Virus record (IMG/VR): IMGVR_UViG_3300003691_000023 | Location: 1-40,309 of that record | DNA: 40,309 nt | Source of the DNA: a virus | Reading direction: 5' to 3' (one strand) | Part shown: one piece after another, positions 2,094-9,712 of the stretch | Layout: each line of letters starts with the position of its first letter | Numbering within the stretch: the stretch's first letter is position 1 | The notes under the pieces: model-generated | What the model saw: only the letters and a program-made list of their open reading frames with translations | Databases searched by the model: none | Told to the model about the DNA's origin: nothing | Translations under genes and position numbers: made by a program

Positions 2094-3116
2094 ATGTACG
2101 GTTTTGTAAATGATAATACAATTCCTTTAACAATAGAAAATATCCTCTTGCGAGTTTCACAAGAGGATATTTTTAGTGTTATAATGGGAAAAAGACCACA
2201 GCTAAATAAAAATTATCATTCAATAATAAGAAGTGATGATAATAATCCTAATTGTAATTTTATATGGTTTGGTGATAAATTACTATTTTTAGATTTTGGT
2301 TATCATAAAACACACTTGGATTGTTTTGGTATAATATCAGAAAAAACAGGTAAATCATTAATAGAATCATTATCATTAGTTAATAGACATTTTAAATTAG
2401 GTTTAAATGGTGAGGGTGAACCTGCTAAAATAAAATTTCCCCCATTACAAAATAAAAATGTTGTAAAACCCACAACAAATATTGTATTTAAACCAAGGTC
2501 ATTTAATTCAAATGATGAAAAATATTGGTCACAATATGGTATTACAAAACAAAATTTAATTGATGAAAATGTGTATGCTATAATATGGTATAAATTTTAT
2601 TCTTTTAAATTAAAAAGGGTTGTAGTAGTTAGACCAAAGACTATTACATATGCATATTATGAATTTTTCCCAAAAGTAAAAATATATAGTCCTTATTCTC
2701 AAAAAAACAATGGTAAGTGGGTATCTAATTTAGATAGTAATCATATTGGAGGTCTTAGAACTTTACCTATCTATGGTAATAAATTAGTTATTACTAAATC
2801 ATTAAAAGATGCTATTGTTATTAAAAATTTCAAAGTTAATACAACATGGTTACAATCAGAAGGTGTAATGCCTAATACTGAAACACTTTTAAATCTATTA
2901 AATAGATTTGATGAATATATTGTATTATATGATAATGACAAAAAAGGATTAGAATCATCAATTTATTTGACAGCAGTACTTAACTCACATTACCCAAATA
3001 AAGCAAGGAATGTTATAATTCCTGTTTATCCTAATGTGACAGATAGTTCTGATTTTTATAAGGAAAAAGGAAAAATAGAATTATTGAAATTATTGGTTAT
3101 TAATAATATTATTTAA
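2094..3116 (+). CDS. DnaG-type primase with Toprim domain
   Basis: This 340-residue protein would make RNA primers for phage DNA synthesis. The N-terminal ~100 residues resemble the primase zinc-binding module (SDDNNPNC near 47-54, LFLDFGYHKTHLDCFGII near 64-81), but the usual set of zinc ligands is incomplete. A central linker is followed by a Toprim domain: the first strand motif LVITKSLKDA at 231-240 and the DxDxxG-type motif YDNDKKG at 279-285. The Toprim glutamate normally found in the first motif is replaced by the Lys-Ser of TKSLKDA. The phage may use a variant active site, or the protein may be a primase-like accessory factor. The start codon lies 3 bases after the previous gene, so the two are probably cotranslated. 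Confidence 0.8.
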   Translation: MYGFVNDNTIPLTIENILLRVSQEDIFSVIMGKRPQLNKNYHSIIRSDDNNPNCNFIWFGDKLLFLDFGYHKTHLDCFGIISEKTGKSLIESLSLVNRHFKLGLNGEGEPAKIKFPPLQNKNVVKPTTNIVFKPRSFNSNDEKYWSQYGITKQNLIDENVYAIIWYKFYSFKLKRVVVVRPKTITYAYYEFFPKVKIYSPYSQKNNGKWVSNLDSNHIGGLRTLPIYGNKLVITKSLKDAIVIKNFKVNTTWLQSEGVMPNTETLLNLLNRFDEYIVLYDNDKKGLESSIYLTAVLNSHYPNKARNVIIPVYPNVTDSSDFYKEKGKIELLKLLVINNII

Positions 3117-3135: not shown

Positions 3136-3996
3136 ATGAGTAGAATTGTAACAGTTTACACATCAAATGGTCAAAATGCAAAATCAATTAGTATTAATGC
3201 TACAGATTGGGGTACATTACAGGGTGAACTTAATGAGAATGATATTCCAACAAGTGGTTTAAAAGCTATTTTAGGTGAACAGAGAACTACTTTAGAGAGT
3301 AATGCAGCACAATTACCATTAGAAGACTTTAGTTTGTTCTTAATGCCTAAGAAAACAAAATCCGGTATTGATTATTCAACACTCTCTTTTAAAGAAAAAA
3401 GAGCTGAAATGAAAAAAATATTTGCAAAAAATGAATCTGCAAAAGAATATTTCAAAGATGGTTCTAAAAATTGGACTCAATTAAGTAGTGATAAAATTAC
3501 AGAATTACTAACTAGTTGGCATAATGGTGAAAAAACCTCAACTAAAAAAGAAGAGAAGAAAGTAGAGAAAAAACCAAAGAAGGAGTCAAAGAAGAAAATA
3601 GAACCAAAAGTAGAGAAGAAAATAGAGAAGAAAATAGAGAAGACACCAAAAAAGGAAAACACTGGCAATATTGTTAAATCTATTGTAGATTCTAAACAAG
3701 AATTTAAGTATATTGTTCTTGTCACTGATGCAGAAGTTAAATTGAACAGTAAAGAATCAGAAGACTTAAAATCAATTGATAGATTAGTTAAAGATTTAAA
3801 TTCTCAAATTGAAATAAGACTTGTTGCTGAAAAAGCTGCAGAATTAGCAAAAAAAGAAGAAGAAAAAGCAGAAGAAAAGAGAAAGATTGAAGAAAAGAAG
3901 AAAAAGGATGAAGAAAAGAAGAAATCTAATCTTTTGAAAGCAGAGGCTATGAAGATAGCTAAGGAACTTCGTAGGGAATTCAACGACATTAGCTAA
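3136..3996 (+). CDS. Ubiquitin-like (beta-grasp) domain fused to Lys/Glu-rich tail
   Basis: The first 77 of 286 residues read like a ubiquitin-like domain. There is a first strand (RIVTVYTSNG), a second strand (KSISINA), a helix region (WGTLQGELNENDI), a short helix and loop, and a last strand (EDFSLFLMPKKTKSG) ending at Gly77, close to ubiquitin's 76 residues. After Gly77 comes a spacer (78-130), a highly charged Lys/Glu repeat (about 137-175), a short folded-looking segment (about 185-225) and another charged coiled-coil-like tail. Ubiquitin-like proteins often have a C-terminal extension that a JAMM protease removes to expose the glycine, and a JAMM protease is encoded two genes downstream. 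The fold call is by eye and similarity to PRTRC-C and MoaD/ThiS-type domains is only suggestive. A terminator follows the gene. Confidence 0.75.
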   Translation: MSRIVTVYTSNGQNAKSISINATDWGTLQGELNENDIPTSGLKAILGEQRTTLESNAAQLPLEDFSLFLMPKKTKSGIDYSTLSFKEKRAEMKKIFAKNESAKEYFKDGSKNWTQLSSDKITELLTSWHNGEKTSTKKEEKKVEKKPKKESKKKIEPKVEKKIEKKIEKTPKKENTGNIVKSIVDSKQEFKYIVLVTDAEVKLNSKESEDLKSIDRLVKDLNSQIEIRLVAEKAAELAKKEEEKAEEKRKIEEKKKKDEEKKKSNLLKAEAMKIAKELRREFNDIS

Positions 3997-4018
3997 TATT
4001 TTTTTCATTTTATAACTT

Positions 4019-4054
4019 AAAAAAGGTAAATATCATTAGGTATTTACCTTTTTT
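4019..4054 (+). terminator. Intrinsic terminator after the ubiquitin-like gene
   Basis: AAAAAAGGTAAATA (4019-4032) pairs perfectly over 14 bp with TATTTACCTTTTTT (4041-4054) around the 8-base loop TCATTAGG. The 3' arm ends in a T-run, and the matching A-run on the other side lets it work in both directions. It lies between the ubiquitin-like gene and the E2-like/JAB gene, so the conjugation-like cassette is split into two transcription units or attenuated at this point. Confidence 0.85.
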
Positions 4055-4069
4055 ATTAAATAATTAATT

Positions 4070-5161
4070 ATGCACCACAATGAAATACAGTACATAAATA
4101 AACATTTTACAAATGAACAGATACTTGAATATTTAAAGATAGAATATGAACATTTAGATTTATTATATTTATATGATCAAGTTAAACAATATTGTAATTT
4201 GGTTGCCAAGTCATATCCAACCTATGAATTACAATTTACTGTTCGCAAAGATAGTATATTTAATATATCTATTGTTATAGAAATAGGTGATTTTGTAATT
4301 AGTAATACACATTTTAATGATTTACATAAAATAAAAGATATGTATATGAAATTAAATTTTAAAGTTAATAATTATATTGATAATGAGTATGTTAAAAATT
4401 CACATGTGGATTTATATAGTGATGATCAACTTATTAAAAAATTCATATTATATAACATTGAAGGTGTTAGATCCACATTAACAGAAAATGAATTATCTGT
4501 TGGTTATATACATAGTCATTTAGGATCATCTCCTAGAACACAATATGATAATACACCTTTTTATTTTTCACAATTCTGTTTAGGTTCTGGTGCTTTATAC
4601 ATGGCACAACAAATATTTAATGCTGGTTCAGTAAGTAATGAAAACTTATTTACATTAATTGTGTTACAAATAGAACCATATTTAGAATGGGAATCACTCG
4701 AAGGTGGACCACATATCAAACTTGATAGGGTAATACCAAAAGATAAATTATTTACTTTTAATATAGAGTATGATGAATTGCTTAATTATTATGATTTAAT
4801 AGACAAAACTTTAAATCCAAAAGATTTAGAATTAACAATAGGATATGATACAAAATTCATAAAAACTGATGCTTTTTTAGCATATGTTGATTCTATAATG
4901 GACAGCAAATATAGAGTATTTGTTAGTGCAGATGGGACAGAGTATGAAATGCAAAAAGTAAAAAATAATTATAAAGAAGTAGTCACACAATTAAAAAGCA
5001 ATTTTATTTTCAAAGGTGTTAGTACTAGACCATTGAAAGTACTATTAGGTGATGGAGGATGGATTACTAATAAACAATACTCTATATCAAAAGACCTAAT
5101 TGCTATCACATTAGAATATTTAAATAATAAATTAAAATTACAACTTTTAAAACATGACTGA
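4070..5161 (+). CDS. E2-like or degenerate JAB-like protein of the ubiquitin-like cassette
   Basis: The key region of this 363-residue protein is a strand ending in HSH (His148 and His150 in GYIHSHLGSSPR) followed by FSQFCLGSG with Cys170. HxH recalls JAMM proteases, but the Ser and Asp ligands at the expected spacing (S-x2-D, eight and eleven residues after the second His) are missing. A histidine-bearing strand followed about 20 residues later by CLG is instead reminiscent of E2 conjugating enzymes and bacterial E2-like (Prok-E2, PRTRC-B-type) proteins, where that cysteine carries the thioester. Gene order (ubiquitin-like, this gene, JAMM, E1) also matches bacterial E1-E2-JAB operons. I favour E2-like with Cys170 as candidate catalytic residue, but this is inference. 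The stop overlaps the next start by 8 bases, implying translational coupling. Confidence 0.8.
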   Translation: MHHNEIQYINKHFTNEQILEYLKIEYEHLDLLYLYDQVKQYCNLVAKSYPTYELQFTVRKDSIFNISIVIEIGDFVISNTHFNDLHKIKDMYMKLNFKVNNYIDNEYVKNSHVDLYSDDQLIKKFILYNIEGVRSTLTENELSVGYIHSHLGSSPRTQYDNTPFYFSQFCLGSGALYMAQQIFNAGSVSNENLFTLIVLQIEPYLEWESLEGGPHIKLDRVIPKDKLFTFNIEYDELLNYYDLIDKTLNPKDLELTIGYDTKFIKTDAFLAYVDSIMDSKYRVFVSADGTEYEMQKVKNNYKEVVTQLKSNFIFKGVSTRPLKVLLGDGGWITNKQYSISKDLIAITLEYLNNKLKLQLLKHD

Positions 5162-6263
5162 AACTAAACAAAAAGTTCGATATCCTGTAGTAATATTACA
5201 AAGAACAATAAAAATTATCATTAGTGATCAAATAATGAATGAAATTAAATACTTGACTACTCGAATTGCTAGTGTCGAATGGTCTGGTATATTATTTTAC
5301 AGTACTATGAATGATATTGATAGTGATGATTTTGTAATAACATTAGAATCTATTTATCCAATGGACAAAGGTAGTGGAGGTGCTACAGATTATGCTTTTA
5401 CAGAAGAATTTGTAGGGTATAGAATGGATAATCCTGCAACATTAAAAATGAATTTTGGACATATACATTCACATAATACAATGCCTGCTTATTTTAGTAG
5501 TGTTGATATGGATGAGATGAATTTAAATTCCGAAAATCATAACTATTATGTAAGTATTGTTGTAAATAACGCATTAGATATTGTAGGTAGAATTGGATTT
5601 GTTGGTGAAAGTACAAATAATTCCAAATATGCTTTTAAAGGAACTAATGGATCTAAACAGACAATTACATTAAGTAATATTGAAAAAAAAATATTTATTT
5701 ATAATTGTGTATTTGAATATGAAACTAATAATATTGATGAAACTTTTCAATCATTAGTTGACGGTATAATATCTAAAAATGCCAAAAAGTTAGCATTGCA
5801 AAAGGAGGCAATGAAAAACAAACCTAATATTATAGCTAATGTTCATAAATATAATAAACCAAATGTATTTACTAAACCATTACCAGAATTAGGTCTTGGA
5901 ATGCCAAAAATATTTGATGATACTAATGATGAAATATTAATATGGGAAGATACATTTCCAAATTATTGGTTACACCATGGAGATATAGATGCTGAGAGCT
6001 ATGGCCCAGAAGATTCAGTAGTTATATTACTTGATAATTTAAAAGGTTCAGATATTGAATTAACTCAATATACAAAACAATTAATTGATGGTAGCCATGG
6101 TTTATGGAAAAATTACTTTCTACCTACAGATAATGTAAGTTTTATTGATGCAATGACAACTGTATATGATTATTTTGAATTATCTACAGAACTACATCCT
6201 GAACTTGAAGTAATATTAGCTTACTTAAGAATATTAATTGAAAATTTAAAAAATAAAAAATGA
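5154..6263 (+). CDS. JAB/MPN+ (JAMM) metalloprotease, predicted isopeptidase
   Basis: A complete JAMM active site is visible in this 369-residue protein. Glu42 lies in VEWSGILFY, the position of the conserved glutamate. GHIHSH gives zinc ligands His105 and His107. Exactly seven residues later, SSVD provides Ser115 and Asp118, so H-x-H-x7-S-x2-D is intact. JAMM enzymes cleave after the C-terminal glycine of ubiquitin-like proteins, either to mature them or to remove them from targets. The C-terminal half, about residues 190-369, is not recognised and ends in a helical region. The start overlaps the previous gene by 8 bases and the stop overlaps the E1 gene by 4 (ATGA). Its natural substrate would be the ubiquitin-like domain encoded upstream. 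Confidence 0.88.
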   Translation: MTETKQKVRYPVVILQRTIKIIISDQIMNEIKYLTTRIASVEWSGILFYSTMNDIDSDDFVITLESIYPMDKGSGGATDYAFTEEFVGYRMDNPATLKMNFGHIHSHNTMPAYFSSVDMDEMNLNSENHNYYVSIVVNNALDIVGRIGFVGESTNNSKYAFKGTNGSKQTITLSNIEKKIFIYNCVFEYETNNIDETFQSLVDGIISKNAKKLALQKEAMKNKPNIIANVHKYNKPNVFTKPLPELGLGMPKIFDDTNDEILIWEDTFPNYWLHHGDIDAESYGPEDSVVILLDNLKGSDIELTQYTKQLIDGSHGLWKNYFLPTDNVSFIDAMTTVYDYFELSTELHPELEVILAYLRILIENLKNKK

Positions 6264-6934
6264 GTAAAGAAAGATTTAAAGACGCTTTATGGTGTACACC
6301 ACAACAAGTATTAGTTGGTGGTCAAGGTGGTATAGGTAGTTGGCTAACATTATTTTTGTCAAGAATAGGTTATGAATTAATTATTTACGATGATGATTCA
6401 TTTGAAGAACATAATATGTCAGGTCAATTCATTACAAATGAGTACATAGGTATTAAAAAAGTAACAGCTGTGTCAAAATTAGTACATAGTTTTGGAGCAT
6501 CAAACAAAATACACTCTTTTGATGAAAGAATAAATATTAATACTCCATCAGCATTATTTGTAATGGGTGGATTTGATAATATGACTGCAAGAAAGCATCA
6601 ATTTGATGCATGGTTTGAACATAATAAAAATGAACAAAATGAAGATGCTATATTAATTGATGGTAGGTTATCAATGGAGCAATTTCAGATATTTTGTGTT
6701 ACACCAAAAACTACAAAAGAATATAGAGAAAAATACCTATTCAATGATGACGAAGTTGAAGAAACAGTATGTTCGTTAAAACAAACAAGTCATACAGCAG
6801 CTATGATTGCTGGATTCATGACAGGTTTTCTCACAAATCATATAACAAATATGATAGAACAAAATAAGGCAAGAACAGTACCTTTTAAAACTGAATACTT
6901 TTTACCTTTAAATATGTTTAGTAATGTTTCATAA
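6260..6934 (+). CDS. E1-like/ThiF-family adenylating enzyme
   Basis: This 224-residue protein is a compact Rossmann-fold E1. It has the ATP-binding loop GGQGGIGS (20-27), acidic residues after the second strand (YDDDSF, 43-48), Asn52, and the DNxxxR motif at 106-111. A candidate catalytic or metal-ligand cysteine is Cys171 in TVCSLKQTSHTAAMIAG. In most family members an arginine near Asn52 (NxxRQ) contacts ATP; here the segment reads NMSGQF, so that arginine is missing. E1 enzymes adenylate the C-terminal glycine of a ubiquitin-like or sulfur-carrier protein. No thiamine, molybdopterin or sulfur-transfer gene is nearby, so a protein-conjugation role with the neighbouring ubiquitin-like and JAMM proteins is more likely. 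The gene overlaps both neighbours. Confidence 0.88.
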   Translation: MSKERFKDALWCTPQQVLVGGQGGIGSWLTLFLSRIGYELIIYDDDSFEEHNMSGQFITNEYIGIKKVTAVSKLVHSFGASNKIHSFDERININTPSALFVMGGFDNMTARKHQFDAWFEHNKNEQNEDAILIDGRLSMEQFQIFCVTPKTTKEYREKYLFNDDEVEETVCSLKQTSHTAAMIAGFMTGFLTNHITNMIEQNKARTVPFKTEYFLPLNMFSNVS

Positions 6935-8156
6935 TGAATCATACACCACAAAGAATCTTGTTGGTTTGTCACTTCCTTTTATATCATCATTAAATGCTAA
7001 TACATATGTCCCTTATTATTCTTTGTATAATAAATATAGAGTTACAACAAACGAAGATGATGGTATAATGAATTATTATTATGTTTTTGGAAAACATAAT
7101 AATAATAATATAAAAACTAGAGAAATAGCTAACATATTAACAGGTAATACAAGTCAATCAAATTATGTAAATAATGTTTATTATGTTAAGAAAAAGATTA
7201 ACTATTTTATAACATTTGGTTTTGTTGCTACTATTAACAATGGAAAACTCAAAATATTAGCTGGTATGTTTATGAAAACATCTGATATTATTGGCAAACC
7301 ACTTATGGATATTGAACATGATAATAGAGAGTTCTTAATAGATGTTGATTTATTAACAAATAGTTTGTATTCAGAGATGTATCTATATTTCAAAAAATAT
7401 ATATTGAATGATATTACAGTTAATATGTCTATTAAACAAGAATTAACAAAATTTTGTTTTTCTGAAGCATCTGTTAATTCTATAAGTATAGGATTCAATC
7501 AATTAAACAGTTATACTGATAGATTAAAAAGTTATGTTTCAAAGCATGATAATTATGTATCATTACCACATAGTTTTACTACTGAATTACTTGATGAAGA
7601 AGAATTTATATCATTACCACATAGTTTTACTACTGAATTACTTGATGGTATTGATACTAGTGTTTTACAAACTGGTAGTGTGTTAATAACTGGTACAGGT
7701 GGTAATATGGATAATCTTGTTGAATTTGAAAATATATTTGCAGATAGAAATAGATATAGTAGATCATTTATAAATCCTCTTGAGTTTATAGCTAGTATTG
7801 ATTTTTACAAAGCTAACATTTCTACAAATGATGTATTAGTTACTAATATTGAATCTGTAAGAAATTTAACACCACCAACTGCAGAAGAGTTTAATAATGC
7901 TGAAGAACAAGTACAAGATGTTAATTTGTGGGATAATCCACCAATTGATGCTATTTTAGAAAATGATGGGAATCATATTTTTGAAGAAGTAGATGTAATT
8001 ACTGAAGTATTAACAGATTCAAATGAAGATGATGACATACAAGTTGTTGATATAATTGAAGATGCACCTTTAACTGTGTCACCAACACCTAGTTCTGACG
8101 ACAGAATAGAGTATGGATTCATAGATGATGAATCACGAATATTAAACTATGACTGA
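6924..8156 (+). CDS. Unknown acidic protein, last gene of the E1-JAMM cassette
   Basis: This 410-residue protein is not recognised. Its N-terminal ~210 residues look folded, with many Tyr and Asn residues and alternating strand-like segments (NYFITFGFVATI, KLKILAGMF). Near residues 212-241 the stretch SLPHSFTTELLD occurs twice, caused by a 51-bp tandem duplication. From about residue 320 the protein is acidic and probably disordered (DSNEDDDIQVVDIIEDA). The gene overlaps the E1 gene by 11 bases and the next nuclease gene by 8, so it is coupled to the cassette. It could be an adaptor, target or regulator of the conjugation system, or an additional E2-type partner; no catalytic motif is visible to choose among these. 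Confidence 0.82.
   Translation: MFHNESYTTKNLVGLSLPFISSLNANTYVPYYSLYNKYRVTTNEDDGIMNYYYVFGKHNNNNIKTREIANILTGNTSQSNYVNNVYYVKKKINYFITFGFVATINNGKLKILAGMFMKTSDIIGKPLMDIEHDNREFLIDVDLLTNSLYSEMYLYFKKYILNDITVNMSIKQELTKFCFSEASVNSISIGFNQLNSYTDRLKSYVSKHDNYVSLPHSFTTELLDEEEFISLPHSFTTELLDGIDTSVLQTGSVLITGTGGNMDNLVEFENIFADRNRYSRSFINPLEFIASIDFYKANISTNDVLVTNIESVRNLTPPTAEEFNNAEEQVQDVNLWDNPPIDAILENDGNHIFEEVDVITEVLTDSNEDDDIQVVDIIEDAPLTVSPTPSSDDRIEYGFIDDESRILNYD
7558..7647 (+). repeat. Exact 39-bp direct repeat, period 51 bp, inside the 410-residue protein gene
   Basis: Bases 7558-7596 are repeated without mismatch at 7609-7647. The 12-bp spacer keeps the frame, so the protein gains the peptide SLPHSFTTELLD twice within 17-residue steps. 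Zero divergence suggests a recent duplication or active copy-number change. Only two copies exist, so it is not a CRISPR. Confidence 0.9.
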
Positions 8157-8556
8157 TAAAAAACCTGATAAAAAATTAAACTATGGTAAAACCAATAGAA
8201 CTAAAGGTCATAATGCAGAACGAAAGTATGCAAAGATTTTTAGAGATTTTGGTTTTACCCATTGTAAGACAGCTAGATATGCATCAACAATGAGTGATGA
8301 TGCAGGTATTGATTTAGTTTTTTTACCTATAAATGTTCAGATAAAAGCAGGTAAACAAAGAGGCTTGAATCCTATTAATGAATTGAAATTGATGGATGGT
8401 AAAATAGCAGAATTGTTTCCACCTGATGCACCTGAACATGGTAAACCGAACATTGTTTTAATTGAAAAAGCTACTGGACAAGGTGTTAAAAGAACAAAAT
8501 ATGACACCACTGTTACAATGGCTTTTGATGATTTTATTAACTTTTTAACCCCTTGA
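8149..8556 (+). CDS. PD-(D/E)XK nuclease, Holliday-junction-resolvase-like
   Basis: This small 135-residue basic protein fits the archaeal-Hjc/VRR-like branch of PD-(D/E)XK nucleases. The N-terminal helix carries Glu24 (GHNAERKYAKIFRDFGF). Then comes a GxD turn (AGIDLVF, Asp55) and a strand with Gln64-x-Lys66 (NVQIKAGKQ), the D-x8-(E/Q)xK signature with Gln in place of Glu. Such enzymes resolve branched DNA made during phage replication and recombination, before packaging. The ATG overlaps the preceding gene by 8 bases, while the next gene starts one base after its stop, giving a run of coupled genes. The family is fairly clear; substrate specificity is inferred. Confidence 0.8.
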   Translation: MTDKKPDKKLNYGKTNRTKGHNAERKYAKIFRDFGFTHCKTARYASTMSDDAGIDLVFLPINVQIKAGKQRGLNPINELKLMDGKIAELFPPDAPEHGKPNIVLIEKATGQGVKRTKYDTTVTMAFDDFINFLTP

Positions 8557-8557
8557 T

Positions 8558-9712
8558 ATGATTAAACTTGGAAAACAAGGAAATGTAGATATTTATTTTA
8601 GTGATGAAGATCATTTATCACAAAGTAAAATAAAATTATTACTTAAGAGTGTAAGTGCTTTTAATAATAAGAAAGATGAAAAAGCATTATACTATACAGA
8701 AAAAGGACACTTTATAATTGGTAGTGGTGTAGATGTACACCTTACTTGTGGTAAAGAGGAATTTAAATCTTTATACCATATAGTAAACTCTGAAAAACCT
8801 GCTGATAAAGGTTTATCAATAATTACTTATTTATTGGATAATGCTTTTGCTGGCAAAACAAAAGAAGAAATCAATAATTTTAATTACTCAATGTTGAGTG
8901 ATACAGTAATTCTGGAAGCTTGTGATATGCATGAGTATCAAAAAAGATATGGTGATGCAGCTAAATTAAAAGCTGTTGCTAAAATGTCTGATTTCTTTGA
9001 CGAATCTTGTTTATCTAATGGTAAACAAATGATAACACTAGATGATTTTCAACTAATCAATAGAATTGTTGATAGTTTTAAGAAATCTGAATTCAAATGG
9101 TTATTTGATAATACTTATGAAAATGATGAAAGTATTGAAATTCATTTTCAAGTACCTATTTATGGTGATGTGATGAGTGTAAAAACAAAAGTGTTACTTG
9201 ATATATTAGTTGTAGATCATAATAGAAAAATAGTAATACCTATTGATATTAAAACTATGAATGATCCAATAAGTAAATTTGTAAAATCATTTTTTAAATT
9301 TAGATATGACATACAAGGATCTTTCTATACTGAGCATGTCATACAATTAATTGAAAATACACCTAGTCTTAAAGATTATAAGGTATCACAATTTTCATTT
9401 TTAGTTGAAAGCACATCTGATGTTAGTGGAGCTGCTATGTTTACTATTGATGATGAAATGCTTGATATAGGTAAGTATGGATATGATCCAGTAAAAGGTG
9501 TTATTCTTACTGATGATAATAATGTTAAAAGTACTCATGTTATTAAACAAGAAACACATGGTTTTATCCATGGTATTGAGTTATATAAATGGCATTTAGA
9601 AAATGGATTCGATCAAGATAGGATTATTAAAGAAAATAATAATCAATTGGTTATAACAAAACATTCATTGGTGGGAGGACATAATGGACATATCAAAGAA
9701 CTTAGCAAATAA
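8558..9712 (+). CDS. RecB/Cas4-type PD-(D/E)XK exonuclease
   Basis: The 384-residue product resembles phage RecE/Cas4-type exonucleases. An N-terminal GSGVDVHLT segment (55-63) matches the Gx(x)-D/H-x-x-L/h opening motif of this group. The nuclease core follows: Asp215 in KVLLDILVV, Asp230-Ile-Lys232 in IPIDIKT, and a Q-x3-Y motif at 253-257 (QGSFY). Together these form the D ... DxK ... QxxxY pattern of RecB-like domains. It would resect or process DNA ends in recombination or replication. It starts one base after the resolvase-like gene and overlaps the next gene by 29 bases. A divergent RecB-like nuclease is encoded in the structural block at 38668-39378. Confidence 0.82.
   Translation: MIKLGKQGNVDIYFSDEDHLSQSKIKLLLKSVSAFNNKKDEKALYYTEKGHFIIGSGVDVHLTCGKEEFKSLYHIVNSEKPADKGLSIITYLLDNAFAGKTKEEINNFNYSMLSDTVILEACDMHEYQKRYGDAAKLKAVAKMSDFFDESCLSNGKQMITLDDFQLINRIVDSFKKSEFKWLFDNTYENDESIEIHFQVPIYGDVMSVKTKVLLDILVVDHNRKIVIPIDIKTMNDPISKFVKSFFKFRYDIQGSFYTEHVIQLIENTPSLKDYKVSQFSFLVESTSDVSGAAMFTIDDEMLDIGKYGYDPVKGVILTDDNNVKSTHVIKQETHGFIHGIELYKWHLENGFDQDRIIKENNNQLVITKHSLVGGHNGHIKELSK

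Follow-up and report, generated by a model that had tools for sequence, protein, structure and literature searches.

Operons encoding ubiquitin-like proteins (Ubl) together with JAB proteins, activating enzymes (E1) and E2-like conjugating proteins were described in bacteria by Iyer et al., whose type 6d resembles the PRTRC cassettes (PMC1779556). In these cassettes, found on plasmids and integrated elements, the Ubl, E2-like, JAB and ThiF-type E1 proteins are separate and adjacently encoded in the order E2-JAB-E1, features that recur in the locus described here. Bacterial Ubl-type conjugation serves anti-phage defence in the cyclic-oligonucleotide-based anti-phage signalling system (CBASS) (PMC10097602). 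A phage Ubl is known from lambda tail assembly, where TAPI/TAPK carries an internal conserved glycine followed by a tail, with cleavage by a JAB protein proposed (PMC1779556). Here we analysed positions 3,136 to 8,156 of a viral DNA of 40,309 nucleotides, IMG/VR record IMGVR_UViG_3300003691_000023; the whole 40,309 nucleotides are called the window below. The window holds a gene cassette that, among described kinds, comes closest to the plasmid Ubl-E2-JAB-E1 cassettes (PRTRC, Iyer type 6d).

Five adjacent open reading frames, all on the plus strand like every feature given below, occupy the locus at 3136-3996 (286 residues), 4070-5161 (363 residues), 5154-6263 (369 residues), 6260-6934 (224 residues) and 6924-8156 (410 residues). 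The last four overlap successively by 8, 4 and 11 bases, as an earlier note on this DNA had described. The first four, within 3136-6934, form the cassette core and encode a Ubl precursor, a protein here termed X, a JAMM metalloprotease and a ThiF/E1 enzyme. Computation established the Ubl fold, the identity of the E1 and the JAMM protease, the invariance of catalytic residues and the strict co-inheritance of the cassette. We consider it likely that the phage encodes a self-contained and reversible ubiquitin-like conjugation system. In the mechanism we propose, the JAMM protease would cut the Ubl precursor after Gly77, and the ThiF-type E1 would use ATP to adenylate the new C-terminus and then form a thioester on Cys171. 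X would accept the Ubl at Cys170 and transfer it onto lysine residues of its targets; removal of the tag, which would make the modification reversible, would again fall to the JAMM protease. Cleavage and activation would be carried out by well-identified enzymes with invariant sites, whereas transfer would depend on X, and the choice of targets is suggested by gene context.

The first 77 residues of the Ubl precursor (3136-3366) were modelled by AlphaFold2 as strand-strand-helix-strand-strand-strand, with a predicted local distance difference test (pLDDT) score mostly above 90. Foldseek comparison with the PDB placed ubiquitin, SUMO, UBX and MoaD nearest (probability 1.0, with E-values of only ∼1e-3). 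The earlier note had called this domain ubiquitin-like and had let the claim depend on a beta-grasp fold, which both analyses found. Sequence comparison was less informative: there was no significant family match in Pfam, NCBIfam or PADLOC, and a profile search of the PDB returned only low-complexity matches, from the tail. The domain closes with KKTKSG77, the predicted mature C-terminus, and in 66 sequences G77 is invariant and S76 is 95% conserved within a consensus end of K-x-K-S-G. All 66 members carry 53-217 residues beyond the invariant glycine, and the next residue is alanine in 35. Because the glycine is always followed by further residues, the protein looks like a precursor. In the window this extension (3367-3996, 209 residues), which cleavage behind G77 is predicted to set free, comprises a helical segment and then a Lys/Glu-rich tail. 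A beta-grasp domain with an invariant glycine inside a precursor, adjoining an intact JAMM gene, matches what is expected of a processed Ubl. Near the C-terminus, precursors of the crAss001 group (for example L002:8292-8966) carry a recurrent E-[IL]-[ND]-x-M-F motif, possibly a docking peptide, that is absent from the Fpv clade. A SAP match (1.6e-4) in the tail of one of 59 precursors hints at DNA binding by the tail.

The JAMM (MPN+) metalloprotease (5154-6263), the predicted enzyme for both precursor processing and tag removal, had a weak Prok-JAB score, yet it contains the complete E...HxHx7SxxD signature. Its H105-S-H107-x7-S115-xx-D118 segment (5466-5507) was verified by a regular-expression check, and these residues and the upstream E42 are invariant in 58 relatives, as expected of the intact protease called from the sequence. 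At the profile level the protein matched the JAB of PRTRC-like plasmid cassettes (95.4%). In three loci (L030, L044 and L052) the JAMM gene is split by group I introns (RF00028) that lie at the codons of the catalytic HSH or immediately behind them (for example ...GLIH / SHN.. or FFSGTD). It is also split near this position in L024, L031, L032, L058 and L073; the first four of these gave no gathering-level Rfam match (L073 was outside the Rfam search).

The ThiF/E1-like Ubl-activating enzyme (6260-6934) belongs to PF00899 (E=1.4e-16; 60.8 bits against a cut-off of 28.1), which confirms the E1/ThiF assignment made earlier. Its profile matched UBA5 best in the PDB (3e-14), followed by MccB, TcdA, ThiF, the ubiquitin and NEDD8 E1s, and Cap2. 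The GxGGI nucleotide loop is present, with G21, G23, G24 and I25 invariant. The predicted catalytic residue Cys171 (VCSLKQT; 6770-6772) is invariant in 60 sequences and shares an alignment column with the cysteines of PRTRC-like ThiF, Cap2 and the NCRTAG motif of Escherichia coli ThiF, the last of which we take to be catalytic Cys184.

Membership of the ThiF family raises the alternative that the cassette is a sulfur-carrier system of the ThiS/ThiF kind, thiolating a nucleotide or cofactor. Where annotated, the E1 genes of relatives are mostly labelled 'thiamine biosynthesis protein', including crAss001 gp76, and the best NCBIfam score of the window's E1 was to a ThiF model, far under the cut-off. 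In contrast to zinc-site ThiF, however, none of 74 E1s carries the CxxC zinc motif, and Pfam and NCBIfam searches of the cassette proteins found no sulfur-transfer domain. The Ubl does not end in a free GG, as a sulfur carrier would, but in KSG buried within a precursor that needs processing, and the partners of the E1 are X and a JAMM protease rather than those of the thiamine pathway. We regard a sulfur-carrier function as very unlikely; the earlier note had also judged it unlikely.

X (4070-5161) is probably a divergent E2-like conjugating enzyme, a proposal that draws on its invariant residues, its AlphaFold2 model and above all on its operon position and motif. S149, H150, C170, G172, E208 and G212 are invariant across 67 members, with a mean column identity below 20%. 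The putative active-site region, H148-S-H150 ... C170 (4511-4579), corresponds to an HSH...CLG, or H..CxG, motif, and the H150-C170 spacing ranges from 11 to 30 residues with a mode of 15. In the operon X holds the position that Prok-E2_D holds in plasmid cassettes. A best (forced) alignment of the two, itself non-significant, matched HSH with the [SN][HN]V motif and C170 with the E2 cysteine. The possibility that X is a degenerate JAMM protein was also considered, and no such relationship was detectable (hhalign probability 1.9%). A group I intron (RF00028) interrupts the X gene of one phage (L027) at the HSH of X itself (DYMH / SHICS). In the Xanthomonas jumbo phage PhiXhv-12 (L100:3241-6615) a ThiF gene is preceded by that of an 892-residue protein with an HPH...GSLCLGS motif. 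This ThiF-linked protein, from Xanthomonas jumbo phages, contains IHPHMAVPSSQESHGSLCLGSF, in which the H..CLG motif of X takes a more classical-looking form, and the gene pair of PhiXhv-12 is possibly a second phage Ubl-type system.

Several observations weigh against a complete conjugation system. The model of X (pLDDT 73; predicted template modelling score 0.69) is only moderate, with helices, strands at 52-99 and 125-134, a loop bearing the histidine and cysteine, and two helices, although this order of elements fits that of the UBC fold (helix, four-strand meander, His/Cys loop, helices). Foldseek found no significant match for X in the PDB, with the UBC-fold proteins Atg3 and TSG101-UEV among weak, long alignments, and the profile comparison with Prok-E2_D (0.3%) was not significant. 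The main chemical worry concerns the E1, in which the arginine of the NxxRQ motif is lost: the motif reads NMSGQ, with Gly55 at 98%, and adenylation is consequently uncertain. The arginine is also lost in several plasmid relatives, where it is often replaced by asparagine. The cassette is also missing from some crAss-like phages: searches of crAss002, Carjivirus communis (p-crAssphage) and Cellulophaga phage phi14:2 yielded no E1, JAMM or X. Finally, Ubl conjugates would be the product of the system, and none has been seen.

The difficulty of placing X extends to family and structure searches generally. It had no significant family match in Pfam, NCBIfam or PADLOC, and by sequence matched neither an E2 nor a JAB family. 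A profile search of the PDB matched nothing, and neither profile nor fold comparison linked X significantly to the UBC/RWD family. A viral fold library returned only uncharacterised phage proteins, with crAss-like relatives of X ranked first. These results would suit an arrangement in which, with no E2 involved, the Ubl is matured, activated by E1 and used in building a phage complex, the role proposed for lambda TAPI/TAPK, with X being another His/Cys enzyme or a scaffold. Lambdoid tails indeed pair a Ubl with a JAB protein in the absence of an E2 (PMC1779556), and their tailed Ubl with its internal glycine, a proposed JAB substrate, resembles the precursor found here. However, the lambda-type sets are tail-assembly genes lacking both E1 and E2, whereas the window has a full activating set in a replication block, and X combines the Prok-E2_D position with an invariant H..C and CxG. 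We consider an arrangement of this kind quite unlikely. For the conjugation system itself, the beta-grasp fold, together with an X that lacks a family match but has E2-like element order, position and His/Cys residues, leaves the Ubl, JAMM and E1 assignments firm and that of an E2 probable. For the 4070 gene, which the earlier note had described as E2-like or JAB-like, the HSH...CLG motif was thus upheld by its conservation, whereas the family assignment was supported neither by sequence nor by Foldseek.

The resemblance to PRTRC cassettes is one of layout and of profile-level homology for two enzymes, the JAMM protease and the E1 (98.7% to plasmid PRTRC-like ThiF). Curated cut-offs of the PRTRC models (TIGR03735-TIGR03737) were not reached: ThiF scored 19.9 against 144.75 and A 11.9 against 101.8, and PRTRC_B had no match in the window. 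The plasmid PRTRC-like proteins themselves score with PRTRC_A, PRTRC_B and PRTRC_ThiF, under the curated cut-offs. In contrast to the plasmid sets, the cassette here is phage-encoded, its Ubl is a long-tailed precursor and X is not detectably Prok-E2_D or PRTRC_B. The phage E1s also form a separate group (Shimodaira-Hasegawa-like approximate likelihood ratio test support 96), although the deeper joins are unsure and the branches long. Because the thresholds were not reached and the E1s are separate, we describe the phage set as working like a PRTRC-type cassette and do not class it as a member. On plasmids of Bacillota and cyanobacteria, the JAB and E1 genes are preceded by a member of 'prokaryotic E2 ligase family D', which in most cases has a C-x-G-x-N motif. 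A plasmid gene first taken as a Ubl proved not to be one in most plasmids, where it ends EDDFI, and a Gly-ending Ubl-like protein was found only in L085. On five Bacillota plasmids (L088, L091, L095, L096 and L099) the PRTRC-like E2-JAB-ThiF genes adjoin a dnaN sliding clamp gene, mostly also with an annotated Rad52. General family scans revealed no ParB-related gene among the named neighbours of the phage cassette (no search was aimed at ParB).

Searching 50,697 phage records by tblastn with the E1 gave 74 matches, including crAss001 and Flavobacterium Fpv phages. The window's E1 as a single query found nothing in IMG/VR, and an E1 alignment as query retrieved 75 loci; together with five annotated phage records and the window these gave 81 loci, including a few duplicates. 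When gene order was surveyed with profiles of each protein, as the earlier note had suggested, Ubl-X-JAMM-E1 appeared on one strand in 73 of the 81, and 52 of these also had the gene Y discussed below. The remaining eight held partial sets, most of them truncated by a contig end, and the order was broken in none. Pairwise-distance correlations among the four proteins were 0.76-0.87, compared with a permutation maximum of 0.26, indicating that they travelled and diverged together. crAss001, cr85, cr112, Kolpuevirus and Dulem virus 41 share the order primase-Ubl-X-JAMM-ThiF-Y-uracil-DNA glycosylase, except that in cr112 an additional HNH gene follows the primase. In the cultured gut phage crAss001, a Bacteroides phage, the cassette is gp79-76 (Ubl gp79, X gp78, JAMM gp77 and E1 gp76). 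Flavobacterium phage Fpv3 has the four core genes in identical order, with uracil-DNA glycosylase upstream. Across 84,980 genomes of bacteria and archaea, matches were confined to two short contigs of metagenome-assembled genomes, which are probably phage DNA; a tblastn search of plasmids with the phage E1 gave no matches. The cassette is present in undoubted Crassvirales (Steigviridae), so the placement in crAss-like phages holds for the set, whereas for the window itself the term is loose. Its E1 groups in the Fpv3 clade with Flavobacterium phages of the genus Fipvunavirus, a genus not placed in Crassvirales by the record's NCBI lineage, and the window's giant protein matched Flavobacterium phages only.

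The fifth gene, Y (6924-8156), encodes a protein of 410 residues with an acidic C-terminus, overlaps the E1 gene and has an uncertain role. Its slot is occupied in 52 complete loci, but the profile of the other Y proteins does not match that of the window, which shows no recognisable homology to the gene in fifth place in the crAss001 group. Y is thus a candidate member only. The window's Y contains a direct repeat, SLPHSFTTELLD, in two copies.

The five genes lie between a DNA primase (2094-3116; phrog_12622, 3.8e-47) upstream and, downstream, a RusA-like Holliday-junction resolvase (8149-8556; phrog_244, 2.7e-5) and a PD-(D/E)XK exonuclease VIII-like protein (8558-9712; phrog_412, 8e-26), and therefore belong to a block of replication and recombination genes. 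Further off, an open reading frame at 2-505 has NUMOD-like repeats (KISNKLLGRNRSEKTKLKISNGHKNKV) and, judged by eye, is probably a homing-endonuclease remnant truncated by the contig end. Because of this setting, the likeliest targets of the proposed conjugation system would be proteins that handle the phage's DNA, or those of the host that bind to this DNA. The primase, resolvase and exonuclease, the uracil-DNA glycosylase of crAss001 and the parallel with Rad52 and dnaN on plasmids together point to targets in DNA replication and repair.

The same chemistry might instead be aimed at the host as counter-defence: either the Ubl would be placed on the host's own proteins, of defence or housekeeping, or the JAMM protease would strip host Ubl tags such as those of Bil and CBASS. 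Bil (bacterial ISG15-like) operons encode Ubl, E2, JAB and E1 as separate genes; this is the arrangement seen here, but Bil is a bacterial defence system whereas the present cassette is phage-borne. No BilA-BilB-BilC-BilD set was recovered, the E1 alone scoring, weakly (6e-5), with BilD, and the other Bil models giving no match. In type II CBASS the E2 and E1 are fused in one protein, Cap2, which conjugates the CD-NTase without a separate Ubl, in contrast to the separate genes and real Ubl of the phage cassette. What Cap2-Cap3 shares with it is the E1 catalytic cysteine and the E2 and JAB chemistry (PMC10097602). A host-directed role is in keeping with the action of bacterial Ubl conjugation in anti-phage defence (CBASS, PMC10097602) and with the weak scores of the E1 against E1-E2 and BilD defence models. 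However, counter-defence genes are usually fast-changing and variable in place, whereas the order of this cassette and its place in the replication block are constant over deep divergence. Nor would a mere antagonist have to carry a Ubl of its own plus an E1 and an X whose active sites are intact. We judge a host-directed role unlikely, and favour conjugation to DNA-linked targets.

A search of 5.39 million open papers for crAss-like phages with ubiquitin or ThiF turned up no prior description of the cassette (subscription papers and preprints lay outside the search). The crAss001 genome paper, a crAss-like comparative paper and the crAss001 virion atlas contained no mention of ubiquitin, ThiF or gp76-79, for the terms searched in each. 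The atlas assigns cargo to other proteins, and nothing thus suggests that the cassette products are virion proteins. The 'thiamine biosynthesis protein' labels on the ThiF genes of these phages, common in public records, should be renamed.

Bacterial Ubl conjugation has so far been characterised mainly as anti-phage defence, and here phages encode an apparent whole pathway. It is kept intact over deep divergence, including in cultured phages such as crAss001, which opens the question of what a phage may tag to direct testing. We tentatively propose, as a more speculative extension, that Crassvirales and related phages may have a reversible, eukaryote-like Ubl pathway of their own, whose E2 family would be phage-specific and whose substrate would be the phage's own replication machinery. 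If this is true, a ubiquitin-like tag would give post-translational control of DNA replication in a bacterial virus.

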